From Ponticaulis sp. (GTDB lineage Bacteria; Pseudomonadota; Alphaproteobacteria; Caulobacterales; Hyphomonadaceae): a DNA stretch of 64,000 nucleotides. Positions 9,318 through 21,864 of this stretch are shown in pieces. The DNA lies in NCBI GenBank assembly GCA_002692725.1, contig NZLU01000046.1, positions 372,001-436,000 of the forward strand. The letters are read 5' to 3'. How positions within the stretch are numbered: the stretch's first letter is position 1; each line of letters opens with the position of its first letter. The notes under the pieces were generated by a model. That model saw nothing but the letters and a program-made list of their open reading frames with translations. It did not search any database and had not been told where the DNA came from. Made by a program: the position numbers and the translations under genes.

Positions 9318-10364
9318 TCACGGTTTCCGTCCCCAGGGAAGCGGTTCGGCTCCGGATGGAAACTCGGTCGCCGGGTCATCCAGAAAAGCCAGCACATCTT
9401 TCCAGACATTTTCAGCCTGCAAATCCCGCATCAGCATGTGATAGCCGCGCTGATAATAAGCCGTGCGCACATGGTCTGGCAGATGTTTGGCGGTGCGCTT
9501 CATGCCACTTTCAGGGATCACAATATCCTTGGCGCCATAAAGCAACAAAGTGCGTTCCGGCAGTCGCGGTGCCGCTTTGTGCGCACTCTCCATCACGCTG
9601 ACGACTCCGTAGACCTGATCGATTCGATTATCTCTCTGCATGAGCGGATCAGACCAGGTTCTCTGCAGCATTTCGATATTGTCGGAAGGCTCAATTTTGA
9701 CGATTCCCTTCGGCGGAACGACGATCCAGCCGGGTCGCACCTGTGTTGAGATGCGTAAGGCAAGCGCCTGATACCAGGGTATGGCGCCCCACCCTCTCAA
9801 CCCGGGGCCTGATAGAATTAACCGATCAACCTCCGGCGGATTTTCTCCGCCAAACAGGGACATTGCGACGGCGCCACCCATGGAAATGCCGACGACGCTG
9901 ATCTGAGCGTCCGGATGCCGGTCTTTAGCAACCTGAACTGCCGTTCGCAGATCTTCCCGCATCGCATCTTCGTTTGGCCAGAAGCCACGCCCGGGTGATC
10001 GTCCGAACCCGCGCTGATCATATGCGTAAGTCCGCACACCGCGCTCCGCCCAGTAAGGCGCAGCCATATGAAAGGCGTTCGCATAGTCATTCATGCCATG
10101 CACACCAACAATCACGTGCTCCGGCTGCTCCTCGCCCCATACTGTGAGCCCAAGCTCGGAACCATCAAACGAGATGAATCGCTCTCGCTCTACATCAAAT
10201 TGCGGCATGGAAGTCTGTTCCTCAGGATAAGGTGAAAATTGCGGTGTTGCGCAACTCACTACAAGGCCAAGAATGGCACTCAGCACGATCAGAGCGCTGA
10301 GTGCACGGCGTTTTTGAGTTCCGGAAGAAGGTCGTCTTCGAACCAGGGATGTCTGTTCAACCAT
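9318..10364 (-). CDS. Alpha/beta hydrolase lipoprotein (lysophospholipase/monoacylglycerol lipase-like)
   Basis: A 348-residue serine hydrolase. The oxyanion region is VHGMNDYANAF, the nucleophile elbow is VVGISMGGAVA, the acid lies in LLLYGAKDIVIPESG and the histidine in QRGYHMLMRD, so the catalytic triad is complete. The N-terminus has a basic stretch, a hydrophobic segment and a lipobox-like end (LGLVVSCA), so the protein is probably lipid-anchored. The substrate is likely a monoacyl lipid, by family. Its first 76 bases overlap the end of the upstream glycosylase gene in another frame; no later start codon keeps the basic signal region, so the overlap seems real. Confidence 0.85.
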   Translation of the reverse strand: MVEQTSLVRRRPSSGTQKRRALSALIVLSAILGLVVSCATPQFSPYPEEQTSMPQFDVERERFISFDGSELGLTVWGEEQPEHVIVGVHGMNDYANAFHMAAPYWAERGVRTYAYDQRGFGRSPGRGFWPNEDAMREDLRTAVQVAKDRHPDAQISVVGISMGGAVAMSLFGGENPPEVDRLILSGPGLRGWGAIPWYQALALRISTQVRPGWIVVPPKGIVKIEPSDNIEMLQRTWSDPLMQRDNRIDQVYGVVSVMESAHKAAPRLPERTLLLYGAKDIVIPESGMKRTAKHLPDHVRTAYYQRGYHMLMRDLQAENVWKDVLAFLDDPATEFPSGAEPLPWGRKP

Positions 10365-16478: not shown

Positions 16479-16503
16479 GGAACTGCGCTAGTCAACGTGC
16501 GTT
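16479..16503 (+). promoter_or_regulatory. EcfG-type general stress promoter
   Basis: GGAAC at 16479-16483 and CGTT at 16500-16503 are separated by exactly 16 bases, the consensus bound by alphaproteobacterial EcfG/SigT sigma factors. It points into the ATP-grasp/C26 gene. Transcription would start near 16510, which rules out the upstream GTG at 16476 as a start codon. Confidence 0.75.
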
Positions 16504-16556
16504 TCAGTTGCATGTCGAACAGAATGGATGTGCATACTTTGAGCCCTGAAGCAGAA

Positions 16557-18686
16557 ATGACTTCAAAACCGTCCCCAGCTGACGAACGCGCCATTAAAGG
16601 GCGCGCCATCGTCACCTATGGCCGCAGCCTGATTTCCCTGGTGATTGCGCGGTCTCTTCACGAACGGGGCATCGAGGTCATCGGTGCCGATGATGTCGGC
16701 ATGACGGTGCTGTCCTTTTCCAAACATGTCAAAGACACCTTCATCCATGCCAGCCTCGAGAAAGACGAAGACGAAGCTCTGAACGATTTCGAAGAGGCCG
16801 TCAGGAAATATGCGCCGGAGGATGACCGACCTTATGTTCTCATCCCGGCGTTTCGGGATGCAAAGCTATTCGCAAAACATCGCAACCGGTTCGAGCCGCT
16901 GATCCAGATCGCGGCGCCCGAGATCGAGTCCATTTCTAAAATCGACCCGAAAGATGCACTCGCAGAATTTGCTCAGAAACACGATCTGGACATTCCGGAA
17001 ACCCACATCATCCAGCCCGAAGACTTCAACGCGGACGATTACGCCTCTGTCGACTTTCCGCGCATTGCAAAGCCCGTCGATGGTGTTGGCGGCCGCGGCG
17101 TCGAGAAAATTGCCTCGCTGGAGAAGCTGAAAGACTATGTCGACGCTGCTGATCCGTCTTCGCCAATCCTGCTACAAGAACTTGTTGAAGGGGAAGACTA
17201 TTGCGTCTCCGTCGTTGCCAATAAAGGCGAACTGCTGGGCGCAGTGACCTATCACAATCTGCGCCAGTTTCCGAATGATGCCGGCGCGGGCGCTATTCGG
17301 GAGACGGTCGATGAAACGCCGTTTCTGGAAAGCACTCGAAAACTCCTGGAACTCTCCAACTGGCATGGCGTAGCTGAGATCGATTTCCGCTGGAATGGCG
17401 ATCCGGATACCCCGCCAAAAATTATCGAAATCAATCCGCGCTATTGGGCAGGCCTGTTCCATTCGACCGCCTCGGGTATTGATTTCCCGTGGCTCGCTTT
17501 TGCATTGGCCGCAGATATCGAAATCGATCGTTCAGAGGACATGTCGGCCGAGATTGGCTTCAAATCCAAAACGCCGGGTGCCTGGCTGCTGTCAATCGCA
17601 GAGGAAACTGCAAGCTCTGACGAACATCTGAAGCAGTCCGGACGGGCATGGGTGCGCATGAAATATCATGCCTCCCGTGGCCATATCCTCAAGGCAACGT
17701 CTCATTTTCTCAAAAGTGCAGGTCATAGTGCAGCCACGCCAGGCATGTTGTCGACACTGCAGAAAGAAGTGGCACGCCATGACGACCTTCCGTCAGAGTT
17801 TTCAGCGGATGACGATCCGGCTGTCGGCCTCGGCATTCTGTTCGCGCTCAGTTCACTGGCGCGTCACGGCGAATTGCCACCCGAACTTAAATTCGAAGCC
17901 CCCGGTAAAGACGAAGAGGAACCAGCTCAACCGGAGCGCAAACCGCGCAAAACGGATCGTCCTGTGATTGGTATCACAAAGCCGGAAAAGGGTGATTTTC
18001 TCGCATATCTAGCCATGAAACTCGCGGTCTGGCTTGCGGGTGGTTCACCCGTCAAAATCACTTCTTCCGCGCCGCGCGATCCCCGCTCTATCGATGGGCT
18101 TCTCTTTGGAGGCGGATCGGATGTGTATCCCGAGCACTATCAAGGCCAGATCAAACCCGGATATCAGTATGATCACGCACGCGATGCTTTGGAAGAATCC
18201 TGGGCGAAAACCGCCCTGCGTCAGAACATTCCTGTTCTTGGCGTCTGCCGCGGCATGCAAATGCTGAACGTTCTCCAAGGAGGGACTCTGTCGAGCGATC
18301 TTAGCAAGTATGACGACATCAAGTATCCGATGACGTTCCTTAAGCGGCTGTTTTTCAGGAAATCGATTGCGATCAAGCCTGACAGCTGGCTGGCCCGCAT
18401 CACCGGCAAGAATCTTCTGTCTGTGAACTCCATTCACACACAGGCCATTCAGACGCTGGGTAATGGCTTTACTGCGTCCGCGCACGAGATTAACGGCCTG
18501 ATACAATCGATCGAACACAAGGATGCAGACTTTATGGTGGGCGTTCAATTCCACCCTGAATTTTTGATCCATAAGCGGTTCGCACGAGAGATTTTCAAAC
18601 AATTCATCGGGCACGCCAGGAATCGCATGGCACCGCGCGATGAGAAGTCTGAAACGCGTGTGGTAGGCGGTGCCCTCGCCGATTAG
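16557..18686 (+). CDS. ATP-grasp ligase fused to C26 (gamma-glutamyl amidase-like) domain
   Basis: A two-domain protein of 709 residues from ATG 16557. Earlier in-frame ATGs at 16524 and 16512 are also possible. Residues about 15-110 form a pre-ATP-grasp fold (AIVTYGRSLISLVIARSL). The ATP-grasp domain follows, with IAKPVDGVGGRGVEKI (about 168-183), LLQELVEGEDYC and the Mg2+-binding IIEINPRYW (about 290). After an acidic, proline-rich linker, residues from about 468 are a class I amidotransferase-like C26 domain as in PuuD: GLLFGGGSDVYPEHY, nucleophile Cys564 in LGVCRGMQ, and His666/Glu668 in VQFHPEF. Both active sites look intact. ATP-grasp enzymes make amide bonds, while C26 enzymes cut gamma-glutamyl amides, so the protein may form and hydrolyse the same conjugate, as glutathionylspermidine synthetase/amidase does. 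The substrate is unknown. Confidence 0.85.
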   Translation: MTSKPSPADERAIKGRAIVTYGRSLISLVIARSLHERGIEVIGADDVGMTVLSFSKHVKDTFIHASLEKDEDEALNDFEEAVRKYAPEDDRPYVLIPAFRDAKLFAKHRNRFEPLIQIAAPEIESISKIDPKDALAEFAQKHDLDIPETHIIQPEDFNADDYASVDFPRIAKPVDGVGGRGVEKIASLEKLKDYVDAADPSSPILLQELVEGEDYCVSVVANKGELLGAVTYHNLRQFPNDAGAGAIRETVDETPFLESTRKLLELSNWHGVAEIDFRWNGDPDTPPKIIEINPRYWAGLFHSTASGIDFPWLAFALAADIEIDRSEDMSAEIGFKSKTPGAWLLSIAEETASSDEHLKQSGRAWVRMKYHASRGHILKATSHFLKSAGHSAATPGMLSTLQKEVARHDDLPSEFSADDDPAVGLGILFALSSLARHGELPPELKFEAPGKDEEEPAQPERKPRKTDRPVIGITKPEKGDFLAYLAMKLAVWLAGGSPVKITSSAPRDPRSIDGLLFGGGSDVYPEHYQGQIKPGYQYDHARDALEESWAKTALRQNIPVLGVCRGMQMLNVLQGGTLSSDLSKYDDIKYPMTFLKRLFFRKSIAIKPDSWLARITGKNLLSVNSIHTQAIQTLGNGFTASAHEINGLIQSIEHKDADFMVGVQFHPEFLIHKRFAREIFKQFIGHARNRMAPRDEKSETRVVGGALAD

Positions 18687-19363
18687 TGCCGGATCATCCA
18701 GACCAATGTCCAGACGAGCGAGGAATAGAGGAAGAACAGAATTCCACAGCGGACCACAAAGCCAAAAACCATTGGCTTGATATCTTTCCAGCTCGTTTCG
18801 GCCGCGATATCTGCGACCGCTCGGGCAAGCTTCTCGGTCAGGTCATCCCGCTTTCGCCCAGCCAGCAATAGCAGAATATTCTCAGATTGTTTGACTTCCA
18901 GCTGCCGCGCTTCTTCCAGGACTTGCTCGAAAACCTGAGCTGAAACAGTCTCTGCTAATATAAGTTTGGGACGCCAGCCGAACTTCCGCAGCTCACCAAA
19001 CAGAAATTTGGCAGAAGGAAAGATGCGCCAGGCATCATAGCTGGTGAAGACCACAAACATCAGTGCCAGCGCCGCCGCCGACCAATGGTCGGCCACCCAC
19101 CCCATCAGGAACAAGGAGGCGATGGTCAGTATGATTGAGGCTTTGCCCAGAGTTGTCCAAAAAAAACGAATAAAACCATCTGAGAAAAATAGATGGGCTT
19201 GTTCGCGAATACGCTGTCGCGCCTGTTGGGCTGCGTCTGCAATTGCTTTGTCCGTCCGTCGATCGACCTCTCGACCCAGCACCTGACGCACAGCAGCAGC
19301 TGACGCCGATACGCCAGCTGCGATAGAGATCAGATTCTTCAGATTCCAGATGGACATGATCAA
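18683..19363 (-). CDS. Membrane protein of the YqjD-type operon, unknown function
   Basis: A 226-residue protein of unknown function with about three membrane segments. Two are adjacent around residues 70-110 (ASIILTIASLFLMGWVADHW, then SAAALALMFVVFTSYDAW) and one lies at the C-terminus (GILFFLYSSLVWTLVWM). Between them is a charged helical region with LAGRKRDDLTEKLARAVADI. It is the third gene of a minus-strand run after the ElaB/YqjD-like and YqjE-like genes, 33 bases from the second. Its stop overlaps the stop of the convergent ATP-grasp/C26 gene by four bases. It is therefore probably under the EcfG-type promoter at 20151-20175. Confidence 0.8.
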   Translation of the reverse strand: MIMSIWNLKNLISIAAGVSASAAAVRQVLGREVDRRTDKAIADAAQQARQRIREQAHLFFSDGFIRFFWTTLGKASIILTIASLFLMGWVADHWSAAALALMFVVFTSYDAWRIFPSAKFLFGELRKFGWRPKLILAETVSAQVFEQVLEEARQLEVKQSENILLLLAGRKRDDLTEKLARAVADIAAETSWKDIKPMVFGFVVRCGILFFLYSSLVWTLVWMIRH

Positions 19364-19396
19364 CTAGGTCGGTCACCTGCCCCCAGAATGCAAGCC

Positions 19397-19795
19397 TCAA
19401 AGGAGGCTAAACATAACCCGTTCCGCATTCTTGACGGCCCGGTCTGGATCGCTCGTTGCCGCATAGCCAACAAGCGCTGCGATACCCAAAGCGGTTACAG
19501 GCCGCTTCTCGACAATTGCAGAGATCGTATCGAAAGGCAGATCTGCGAGCATATCCGCTGTCGCGTCCTCAAACTGATCCAGTTCTTCATCAGCCGATTT
19601 GAAAATATCGAGGAAGAACAGCACACAAAGCGCAGCGACAAGGAACAACAATCCGCCCGTCGATAGCCCTGCCACCCAAAGCGGCATCCAATTGGCCAGC
19701 AACATCGTGACAGCCGCCGACAACGCAAGTACGCCAGCGAAGCCAAAAACAGCTCCGCTGACGCCTGCAAGCAATCTTAGTTTTGCTTTATCCAT
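19397..19795 (-). CDS. YqjE/holin-like small membrane protein
   Basis: A 132-residue protein with two strong membrane segments near the N-terminus (GAVFGFAGVLALSAAVTMLL and GGLLFLVAALCVLFFLDIF) and a weaker Ala/Gly-rich hydrophobic stretch near the C-terminus (VTALGIAALVGYAA). This resembles YqjE and holin-like partners of YqjD. The role is unknown; in enterobacteria yqjD, yqjE and yqjK form a stationary-phase operon. It lies six bases downstream of the YqjD-like gene. Confidence 0.75.
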   Translation of the reverse strand: MDKAKLRLLAGVSGAVFGFAGVLALSAAVTMLLANWMPLWVAGLSTGGLLFLVAALCVLFFLDIFKSADEELDQFEDATADMLADLPFDTISAIVEKRPVTALGIAALVGYAATSDPDRAVKNAERVMFSLL

Positions 19796-19801
19796 GTGCG
19801 T

Positions 19802-20122
19802 TTACCGGCGGGTCGCGATCGCGATCAGCGCGCCCACGCCAGCTGCTATACCAACTGCTGCGAGCGGCTTGCTGCGGATTTGTGACTGGATCGAGTCGCG
19901 TGTTGATTCGAGCGTATCAACCGCATCATCAGCCAGAGCTTTGCCCTTGTCGGCGCTTTTCTCAGCCTGCTTCCCAGCAAGACGTGAGACGCTTGCCATG
20001 AGAGAATTTACGTTGCCCTTCAGAGACTCAAAGTCTGACTTCAGCGCCTCAACGTCTGAATCAATCTCTTTGACCTCTTTTTTTTCATCTGAAGTCGGTA
20101 GTGGAATAGTGTTGGTCGACAT
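19802..20122 (-). CDS. ElaB/YqjD/DUF883-like membrane-anchored protein
   Basis: A 106-residue protein starting with ATG at 20122, preceded by AAGGAG. Residues about 10-75 form a charged amphipathic helix of the DUF883 type (VEALKSDFESLKGNVNSLM and KGKALADDAVDTLESTRDSI). The C-terminus is a glycine/alanine membrane anchor ending in ALIAIATRR. In E. coli, YqjD binds ribosomes at the inner membrane in stationary phase and is RpoS-controlled; here the gene has an EcfG-type promoter, which is the alphaproteobacterial counterpart. The longer frame to 20317 is rejected because it runs through that promoter. Confidence 0.85.
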   Translation of the reverse strand: MSTNTIPLPTSDEKKEVKEIDSDVEALKSDFESLKGNVNSLMASVSRLAGKQAEKSADKGKALADDAVDTLESTRDSIQSQIRSKPLAAVGIAAGVGALIAIATRR

Positions 20123-20150
20123 TATTGCTCTCCTTTCTGCGTGATGAACC

Positions 20151-20175
20151 AACGCAGCAATCGAGCAAGTGTTCC
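20151..20175 (-). promoter_or_regulatory. EcfG-type general stress promoter for the YqjD-like operon
   Basis: On the minus strand GGAAC (20175-20171) and CGTT (20154-20151) are separated by exactly 16 bases. The predicted transcript would have a leader of about 20 bases holding the AAGGAG site before ATG 20122. Confidence 0.78.
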
Positions 20176-20242
20176 GCAAAACCAGAAGCCCGACACCGAT
20201 GGGTATAATTTGGGCAATTTGGTGAAAGCGCCATTCTTCCCG

Positions 20243-20267
20243 GGAACGATCAGAACCAATCTTCGTT
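20243..20267 (+). promoter_or_regulatory. EcfG-type general stress promoter for the Crp/Fnr gene
   Basis: GGAAC (20243-20247) and CGTT (20264-20267) lie 16 bases apart, pointing to the Crp/Fnr gene. The expected start of transcription is within a few bases of ATG 20277, so this transcript would be nearly leaderless. A separate TATAAT at 20204-20209 lacks a matching -35 hexamer. Confidence 0.7.
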
Positions 20268-20276
20268 ATCGGTAGC

Positions 20277-21020
20277 ATGATTGCACTACGTAACAGACTT
20301 TCGCAGTTCAGCCCCATCCCGGATCCAATCTGGGCTGAGATGGGTCGTCTGGACAGGCAGAAAATGACGTTCTTCCCAGGGGAAGACGTTATTAAGGAGG
20401 GCGAGCCTGCTGATCGGATTTTTGTTATCCGTCGTGGGTGGGCTATTCGTTATAAGATGCTCGATGACGGTCGCCGTCAGATCGTAAACTTCATGCTTCC
20501 GGGCGATGTTTTCGATCTACAGGCTCTCGCTACACTAAGAGCGGACCATACCGTGACGGCTGTTACGGCTTGCGACATTACGTTCGTCCAGCAAGAGAGC
20601 TTCATGTCTGCGCTGTCGCGTTCAGCTCCATTGGCAGGCGCTTTCTGGTGGGCAGCGGTTCAGGAGGAAGCGATCCTGCGGGAGCAGATCGTGCGCGTGG
20701 GTCGCTTGTCCGCAAAAGAAAGAATTGGTCACCTGCTGCTGGAGCTTCAACGCCGTCAGAATGCAGGCCTCGGACGCGAGCAGAACGAAGTCGGCCTGCC
20801 GATCACGCGAACTGACATCGCAGATGCGCTCGGCCTTACGTCGGTGCACGTCTCGCGGACAATGTCGGCGATGCGACGCGACAACCTCATTGAAGAGGAA
20901 AATCATGCCGTCCGGATCATCGATCGGCGCATGCTGGCACAGATTTGCCATTTTGATGATGATTATTTGCACGTCCGACGCCCGGAAAAGCCTCTTTTTC
21001 AGGTGCCGGAAAGAAGCTGA
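20277..21020 (+). CDS. Crp/Fnr family transcriptional regulator
   Basis: A 247-residue regulator with an N-terminal cyclic-nucleotide-binding-type beta-barrel (FPGEDVIKEGEPADRIFVIRRG and LPGDVFDLQAL) and a C-terminal winged helix (LPITRTDIADALGLTSVHVSRTMSAMRRDNLI). The N-terminal FNR iron-sulfur cysteines are absent, so it is not an oxygen sensor of the FNR type. It lacks clear cAMP-binding residues as well. It is divergent from the YqjD-like operon across 154 bases that contain one EcfG-type promoter in each direction, so it may belong to the general stress regulon. Confidence 0.9.
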   Translation: MIALRNRLSQFSPIPDPIWAEMGRLDRQKMTFFPGEDVIKEGEPADRIFVIRRGWAIRYKMLDDGRRQIVNFMLPGDVFDLQALATLRADHTVTAVTACDITFVQQESFMSALSRSAPLAGAFWWAAVQEEAILREQIVRVGRLSAKERIGHLLLELQRRQNAGLGREQNEVGLPITRTDIADALGLTSVHVSRTMSAMRRDNLIEEENHAVRIIDRRMLAQICHFDDDYLHVRRPEKPLFQVPERS

Positions 21021-21091
21021 CGCAGCGGATTAACCTGCATCAACGAACCCGCCGGCGTTCTGTGACAGCCTGATCGCCGGGAAGGCATACG

Positions 21092-21571
21092 ATGGAACTA
21101 CCAGATCACGATCAACCCACACAACGCATATACGGACGGCTCCGTCGCTCCGGCTGGCTGATCATGGGTAGCCAGCAGGAAACGGATGACATTCTGGAAG
21201 ATTCCGTCCGCACCCGCTTCAAAGAACTCATGCACGCGCATACGGAACGCTCAATTGACGTCGAGGTGTTTACACTAGCCATTGGTGCCTTTGAACGGTC
21301 GCTGAATAACCGGCCAAAAGTCGCTTTTCTGGAGCAACCATCTACAAAGCGCCCGGAGCTATCCCGCGACATCAGAAAGCTGTCGCGAGTTGAACGCATA
21401 TCCCTGGCTCTGCTCGAAGTGGAAAATTTCAGCCTTGAAGAAGCTAGTCAAATCGCCGACCGGCATAGATCAGTCCTCGAGGCGGCGCTGTCACGCGCGG
21501 TGGAAATGCTTCGAGACCATGCGCTTCCAGAAATTATTGAGACCGAATGGACATCTTTGGGACGCGCTTAA
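21092..21571 (+). CDS. Sigma-factor-like protein (ECF-like or PhyR sigma-like domain without receiver)
   Basis: A 159-residue protein. The N-terminal half (RLRRSGWLIMGSQQETDDIL) has the spacing of sigma region 2 and is close in style to the sigma-like domain of PhyR. The C-terminal half resembles sigma region 4: LSRVERISLALLEVENFSLEEASQIADR followed by a recognition-like helix and SRAVEMLRDH. The acidic DNA-melting features of true region 2 are weak and there is no receiver domain. Possible roles are a divergent ECF sigma factor or a standalone sigma mimic that could bind an anti-sigma factor such as NepR. It lies 71 bases after the Crp/Fnr gene on the same strand, within a cluster of EcfG-type promoters. 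Confidence 0.6.
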   Translation: MELPDHDQPTQRIYGRLRRSGWLIMGSQQETDDILEDSVRTRFKELMHAHTERSIDVEVFTLAIGAFERSLNNRPKVAFLEQPSTKRPELSRDIRKLSRVERISLALLEVENFSLEEASQIADRHRSVLEAALSRAVEMLRDHALPEIIETEWTSLGRA

Positions 21572-21599
21572 ACACAGTCAGGAATTTTTGAAAAGTCTC

Positions 21600-21624
21600 G
21601 GAACCACCTCCACGGTCGTCCGTT
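21600..21624 (+). promoter_or_regulatory. EcfG-type general stress promoter for the 50-residue membrane protein
   Basis: GGAAC (21600-21604) and CGTT (21621-21624) are 16 bases apart, just after the sigma-like gene. The ATG of the small gene lies 19 bases beyond CGTT, with AGGAG in between. Confidence 0.75.
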
Positions 21625-21642
21625 GGATTTGGCAGGAGATTT

Positions 21643-21795
21643 ATGATGATGAACCCGACTGACGATCAAAAAACCTTCACAAATTCAAAGCCAAACAAAA
21701 AGGGCGTTCTCGCAGCGCTCTCGTTGATGACTGGCGCATCTGCCGTGTCTTTTGCGGTAATGGCCTTCGCCTTCGTTGAACAAGTCACGATCTGA
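21643..21795 (+). CDS. Small single-span membrane protein (50 residues)
   Basis: A 50-codon gene with a good ribosome site (AGGAG six bases before the ATG). The N-terminal 20 residues are hydrophilic with several Lys and Asp; then comes one membrane segment, LAALSLMTGASAVSFAVMAF. It ends FVEQVTI. I do not recognise a family. It has its own EcfG-type promoter and is followed by a strong bidirectional terminator, so it is a complete small transcription unit. Confidence 0.75.
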   Translation: MMMNPTDDQKTFTNSKPNKKGVLAALSLMTGASAVSFAVMAFAFVEQVTI

Positions 21796-21816
21796 ACAAT
21801 AAAGACCAAAACAAAA

Positions 21817-21840
21817 AAGCCGGGTTTCAAAACCCGGCTT
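21817..21840. terminator. Bidirectional terminator between the small stress gene and ndk
   Basis: A ten-base stem AAGCCGGGTT/AACCCGGCTT with loop TCAA is flanked by A-rich sequence on the left and a short T-tract on the right. It can end the small plus-strand gene and, on the minus strand, ndk. Confidence 0.88.
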
Positions 21841-21864
21841 TTCTGTATCTGAATTTCAGAAGGA

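Follow-up and report, generated by a model that had tools for sequence, protein, structure and literature searches.

A candidate EcfG-controlled stress module of Ponticaulis, probably relocated from the phyR locus, encodes a stand-alone PhyR-like sigma-like protein

Introduction

Why do four promoter-like sites of the EcfG type lie within 5.15 kb of one another in the genome of a marine Ponticaulis, and do the genes behind them belong to the general stress response (GSR)? The stretch concerned, hereafter the window, comprises 64 kb (G000:C42:372001-436000) of a 3.89-Mb genome whose nearest named relatives are the Ponticaulis metagenome-assembled genomes NAT89 and NAT113. A preliminary description, made from the letters of the window alone, had proposed a GSR island there and pointed to Hyphomonadaceae, which is consistent with these relatives. 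In this family of systems, phosphorylated PhyR takes NepR off the sigma factor EcfG under stress. We report that the sites are supported as EcfG-dependent promoters, that the module they serve appears to be a relocated part of an older GSR locus, and that it encodes a sigma-like protein of 159 amino acids (aa), hereafter SL, which resembles PhyR.

Results

Four EcfG-type promoter sites

The motif was taken as GGAAC-N16/17-CGTT, and spacings from N15 to N18 were looked at in the window. Exactly four GGAAC-N16-CGTT sites were found, each ahead of a gene:

16479..16503, plus strand: EcfG-type promoter of the ATP-grasp/C26 gene; GGAAC-N16-CGTT, conserved in loci L126 and L127
20151..20175, minus strand: EcfG-type promoter for the DUF883-holin-TM operon; ATG 28 bp downstream
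20243..20267, plus strand: EcfG-type promoter for crp; start codon 9 nt after CGTT, an offset of 8-9 nt in 11 named loci
21600..21624, plus strand: EcfG-type promoter for the gene of the 50-aa membrane protein; ATG 18 bp downstream

These are the four sites of the preliminary description, which had placed the minus-strand one at 20171. Its statement that each stands directly before a gene also held, with one correction: the ATP-grasp reading frame, as called mechanically, begins ahead of the site, at GTG 16476, whereas comparison with two sister genomes sets the start at ATG 16512, 8 nt after CGTT. Neither an N17 nor an N18 version occurs in the window, and two extra matches at N15 (26073 and 44262) lie outside the four-site claim. 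Shuffling of the window gave an expectation of 1.74 matches over the four spacings, or ~0.43 per spacing, close to the earlier estimate of about half a match. A sigma-70 origin of the promoters was rejected (2 sites found against 3.9 expected).

Across the whole genome 56 N16/17 sites were found, whilst the reversed pattern gave 64 matches and GGAAC-N19/20-CGTT gave 45. The raw count thus fails to separate signal from background, and placement relative to genes was therefore used, with genes called by a simple codon-usage gene caller and a distance limit of 150 bp upstream of a called gene. By this measure 31/56 N16/17 sites stood upstream of a gene, against 1/30 for the N19/20 control (Fisher p = 5e-7), whilst 16/56 and 25/30, respectively, fell inside genes. 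The preliminary description had named frequency inside coding sequence as the point on which its proposal could fail; the inside-gene share is below that of the control, and the proposal is therefore not refuted on this count. Four sites within 5.15 kb anywhere in the genome would be expected by chance with p = 0.003 for 56 random sites and p = 0.0002 for the 31 promoter-like sites. Genes behind the genome-wide sites, which we take to encode small lipoproteins (two near dps), glycine-zipper, hemerythrin-like and YciF/DUF892-like proteins, are typical stress-regulon genes. The loci of relatives contain 284 N16/17 sites, whereas two wrong spacings gave 16 and 17, in counts that also took in this genome's own loci.

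The comparison of related Hyphomonadaceae that had been proposed earlier showed the promoters to be conserved at orthologous positions in diverged DNA. In two sister genomes (G002, locus L126; G005, locus L127) the gene order of the module is unchanged, the motif is found before the DUF883, crp and ATP-grasp genes, and all four site positions are kept, the last in degenerate form, although the intervening DNA has changed. At the ATP-grasp promoter the three genomes share the same -35 element, N16 spacing and -10 element with an ATG exactly 8 nt on, whilst the spacer and the first codons are unrelated. More widely, the motif lies upstream of DUF883 in 23/23 Hyphomonadaceae-type loci and upstream of crp in 11/23, compared with 0/23 at control spacings.

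The genome carries a complete GSR core at C42:490000-509990 (locus L039), consisting of phyR (265 aa), nepR (56 aa), ecfG and an HWE-type kinase gene, so that cognate EcfG, NepR and PhyR are all encoded. After the core come dps and genes for small proteins, their start codons preceded by the motif at ~30 bp; the core lies ~100 kb from the module in the window. Each of the two sister genomes has one core. By motif, placement, orthologous conservation and the presence of these cognate regulators, the four sites are supported as predicted EcfG-dependent promoters.

Within L039, at 18772-18798 (C42:508771-508797), two opposite-strand EcfG motifs overlap almost fully in a palindromic divergent promoter arrangement, and a similar opposite-strand pair occurs at 9557-9584 of locus L136. 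A second NepR paralogue (39% identity) is encoded beside core GSR genes in another genome (G013, locus L130, 9474-9656, minus strand).

A relocated stress module

The genes served by the four sites, and the hairpin that follows them, are these:

16512..18686, plus strand: ATP-grasp ligase/peptidase C26 (gamma-glutamyl hydrolase-like) fusion, 724 aa; Pfam ATPgrasp_Ter 4.7e-13, Peptidase_C26 2.7e-42
18683..19363, minus strand: TM226 membrane protein of the DUF883 operon (third gene), about 224-226 aa; no Pfam match
19397..19795, minus strand: Phage_holin_3_6-type membrane protein, 132 aa, second operon gene; PF07332 3.9e-7
19802..20122, minus strand: YqjD/DUF883-like membrane-anchored protein, 106 aa, first operon gene; weak DUF883_C match below cut-off
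20277..21020, plus strand: Crp/Fnr-superfamily regulator, FixK-like, 247 aa; PF00027 5e-16, PF13545 5e-17
21092..21571, plus strand: SL, stand-alone PhyR-like sigma-like protein, 159 aa; NF006623 PhyR family 3e-8, sigma-like part only
21643..21795, plus strand: 50-aa single-helix membrane protein; from reading frame and locus comparison
21811..21846, no strand assigned: 16-pair hairpin between the module and ndk; computed hairpin

In other genomes much of this set lies next to phyR. Four members of the same genus (G001, G003, G004, G006) have the DUF883-holin pair and the ATP-grasp/C26 homologue directly beside it, and the TM226-holin-DUF883 operon and crp are its neighbours in Hyphomonas, Henriciella and UBA5336. 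Of 80 named crp homologues, which reach as far as Sphingopyxis and Erythrobacter, 72 lie no more than 6 kb from phyR, with the two Ponticaulis among the exceptions; crp is likewise linked to phyR in Hellea. At the ndk site, the place of the module in the window, G001 and G004 hold the TM226 gene alone. As relatives link these genes to phyR and the ndk site of two of them holds only TM226, the phyR linkage is probably ancestral and the arrangement in the window a derived split. The module is therefore very probably a relocated part of an ancestral GSR locus, predicted to be under EcfG control.

Elsewhere in this genome (loci L043 and L044; C42:511162, 556402 and 556688) genes for a glycine-zipper lipoprotein, a 76-aa and a 186-aa protein are scattered, each with its own EcfG motif; these genes stand beside phyR and the ATP-grasp gene in G001, G003, G004 and G006.

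The ATP-grasp/C26 protein joins a ligase with a gamma-glutamyl hydrolase-like domain, as judged by its Pfam matches. The start of the DUF883-like gene was set by positional conservation among relatives, and TM226 is kept as third operon gene in most related loci compared. Both a cNMP-binding-type sensor domain and a Crp-like winged helix are present in the Crp regulator, whose best solved relative is FixK2 (1.8e-25) and which has no FNR-type N-terminal cysteines. Short single-helix proteins are encoded at places similar to that of the 50-aa gene in other GSR loci. The hairpin is likely a bidirectional terminator. Near a sigma/anti-sigma pair of the extracytoplasmic function (ECF) type, locus L033 (1-1041, minus strand) encodes a protein in which a very long EEEQEE repeat precedes a subtilase-like domain.

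A PhyR-like sigma-like protein behind crp

SL contains both the sigma2 and the sigma4 lobe of the N-terminal sigma-like domain of PhyR. The C-terminal receiver domain with the phosphoacceptor Asp is absent; the SL reading frame ends at 21571 and the next one encodes the 50-aa membrane protein. We therefore call SL PhyR-like rather than PhyR. A single-sequence search of the PDB with SL gave nothing useful, and only a profile of the family (15 members) worked. This profile matched the sigma-like domain of PhyR (2lfw) first (1e-10) and other PhyRs next, compared with 6e-6 for EcfG of Bartonella quintana; other sigma factors were matched mainly via region 4. Alignment with hhalign likewise gave 1.7e-7 for PhyR versus 4.1e-6 for a sigma factor, and of the 15 members 5 match the Pfam family PhyR_sigma2 and 5 PhyR_sigma-like. 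An AlphaFold2 model of SL (pLDDT 84, pTM 0.78) has two lobes and superposes on NepR-bound B. quintana RpoE/EcfG (Z 14.8) and NepR-bound PhyR (Z 13.3) nearly equally well, and therefore the fold comparison cannot decide the identity of SL.

In the SL family the helix of region 4.2 has a mean net charge of -0.8, versus +4.6 in EcfG, and regions 2.3-2.4 have +0.1 versus +4.9. Like PhyR, SL lacks the basic DNA-contact residues of real sigma factors; it also lacks their KSR..RAR recognition helix. By profile and charge loss, the sigma-like protein of the preliminary description is thus most probably a PhyR-type sigma mimic and not an ordinary sigma factor. In a tree the SL family groups into a single clade (96/92) with long branches, separate from PhyR as well as EcfG.

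With few exceptions the SL gene comes behind crp in the loci found, which belong to several families of the order. In several genomes it is beside phyR or nepR, and locus L129 has SL beside phyR without a neighbouring crp. In one genome (G185, locus L156, 1333-1491, minus strand) a gene for a 52-aa NepR-like protein (LKQYKQELLDAPLPEPLEKLLAE) adjoins the crp-SL pair and a PhyR homologue; this protein is possibly the cognate anti-sigma partner of SL. In loci L136, L151, L154 and L155 a divergent PhyR (33% identity) with its own EcfG motif comes right after crp-SL, and is followed by a 68-aa ribbon-helix-helix-like protein.

Predicted leaderless mRNAs

Among the sites of relatives, the offset from CGTT to ATG is sharply peaked at 8 nt (29/284, these 29 not being independent, as the loci share orthologues) and broadly at 29-32 nt. 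Both crp (9 nt) and the ATP-grasp gene (8 nt) fall in the short-offset class. Transcription from ECF promoters usually begins a few nucleotides past the -10 box; with an ATG 8-9 nt past that box, the crp and ATP-grasp mRNAs are probably leaderless. These offsets predict a class of leaderless EcfG-dependent mRNAs. In S. melonis an EcfG-dependent Crp-like gene has the motif 10 bp from its start (PMC6599016).

Discussion

The GSR reading of the preliminary description is supported on five independent counts: the core is in the genome, the motif precedes stress genes and is conserved in diverged DNA, relatives of the module's genes stand beside phyR in related genera, and the consensus equals that derived by RNA-seq in Sphingopyxis, GGAAC-N16-CGTT (PMC7083833). 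Earlier work had already described promoters of this type (PMC7083833), the core, and the occurrence of a Crp-Fnr gene close to phyR (PMC5830050). The EcfG regulons of Sphingopyxis granuli, Sphingomonas melonis and Caulobacter (sigma-T) share with Ponticaulis the motif, the core genes and targets such as small membrane or envelope proteins, Dps and a Crp-like regulator. Here, however, four promoters stand close together in a relocated module, 100 kb away from the core, and the module adds a stand-alone sigma mimic and the ATP-grasp/C26 enzyme. In Rhodobacter sphaeroides a Crp-Fnr gene lies downstream of phyR (PMC5830050), and is alike at the level of the family (Crp-Fnr) and of its place in the GSR locus; in Ponticaulis, by contrast, the gene has its own EcfG-type promoter, a start codon that comes 9 nt after the -10 box, and SL next to it.

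With the sigma-like domain of PhyR (PDB 2lfw, 3t0y, 4qic) SL shares a two-lobed sigma fold without basic DNA-contact residues, an LRR...TGSQ-like first helix and a similar second lobe. It differs in having no receiver domain, in its own deep clade and its place behind crp, and in an identity to PhyR under 20% in profile and fold alignments. EcfG/RpoE2/SigT (PDB 5uxx) resembles SL in overall fold, the compact conformation of SL being like the NepR-bound form, but regions 2.3-2.4 and 4.2 of SL lack its positive charge. No receiver-less PhyR was found in the literature searched, a scope without most subscription journals, and against that literature a stand-alone PhyR-like sigma mimic tied to the Crp gene of a stress locus is new.

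How might such a module work? Its separation from the phyR-nepR-ecfG-kinase core would date to the ancestor of this Ponticaulis group. Under stress, phosphorylated PhyR would remove NepR from EcfG, and EcfG-RNA polymerase would start at the four sites, serving crp and SL, the DUF883-holin-membrane operon, the ATP-grasp/C26 gene and the 50-aa gene. SL would most likely bind NepR, or a NepR-like anti-sigma factor, without phosphorylation and compete for NepR. The crp-SL operon would then feed the response forward once it is on and prolong it (positive feedback), and the Crp regulator would relay the signal to further, second-tier genes. We therefore put forward, tentatively and as something short of an even bet, that SL, a receiver-less PhyR-type protein from an EcfG-controlled crp operon, may be a phosphorylation-independent anti-anti-sigma factor that latches the stress response on. 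The literature searched describes no such feedback arm.

Several observations weigh against parts of this picture. The raw genome-wide motif count does not exceed its controls. The site before the 50-aa gene is degenerate in both sisters by one mismatch each, its -10 element being CGTT here, TGTT in L127 (GGAAC-N16-TGTT) and CGTA in L126 (GGAAC-N16-CGTA). No exact motif was found at phyR or nepR of this genome, so autoregulation of the core is not visible. The SL clade is deep and not inside PhyR, so NepR binding cannot be assumed, and SL is dispensable, because several NepR-bearing Hyphomonas genomes carry crp without it.

It is highly improbable that the four sites are chance matches or the promoters of another ECF sigma factor: the ~16/56 genome sites that lie inside genes do look like chance, but orthologous positions keep the fixed spacing although the DNA has diverged (23/23 at DUF883), the GSR core is present and the linked genes adjoin it elsewhere. 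We also consider it unlikely that the window holds the ancestral arrangement and the compact, phyR-linked one is derived. The two sister genomes share the arrangement of the window; against this, Hyphomonas, Henriciella and UBA5336 have both the DUF883 operon and crp linked to phyR, and Hellea, Sphingopyxis and Erythrobacter have crp so linked, which together makes linkage the earlier condition; in addition, only TM226 is found at the ndk site of G001 and G004.

As for SL, a working EcfG-type sigma paralogue reading the GGAAC-CGTT promoters would suit its sigma fold and its match to RpoE/EcfG, which is as good as that to PhyR; such paralogues are, moreover, frequent among Alphaproteobacteria (PMC3892343). 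This explanation is nevertheless very unlikely, as the profiles favour PhyR sigma-like domains and the DNA-touching regions have lost their positive charge and recognition helix. That SL is a sigma mimic acting elsewhere than on NepR (as a partner of Crp, on a different anti-sigma factor or as a negative decoy) is a possibility to be taken seriously, even if we lean against it: SL tracks crp far more tightly than nepR, it forms a separate deep clade, and NepR paralogues with other partners are known (PMC4814048). Conversely, SL is beside phyR or nepR in several genomes, including L129 with no crp nearby, and L156 has the NepR-like 52-aa gene next to it.

Taken together, these data extend the EcfG regulon to Ponticaulis on strong comparative evidence, and add to the stress locus a third sigma-fold family besides EcfG and PhyR. 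If SL does bind NepR without phosphorylation, the partner-switch model would gain a memory or latch element.

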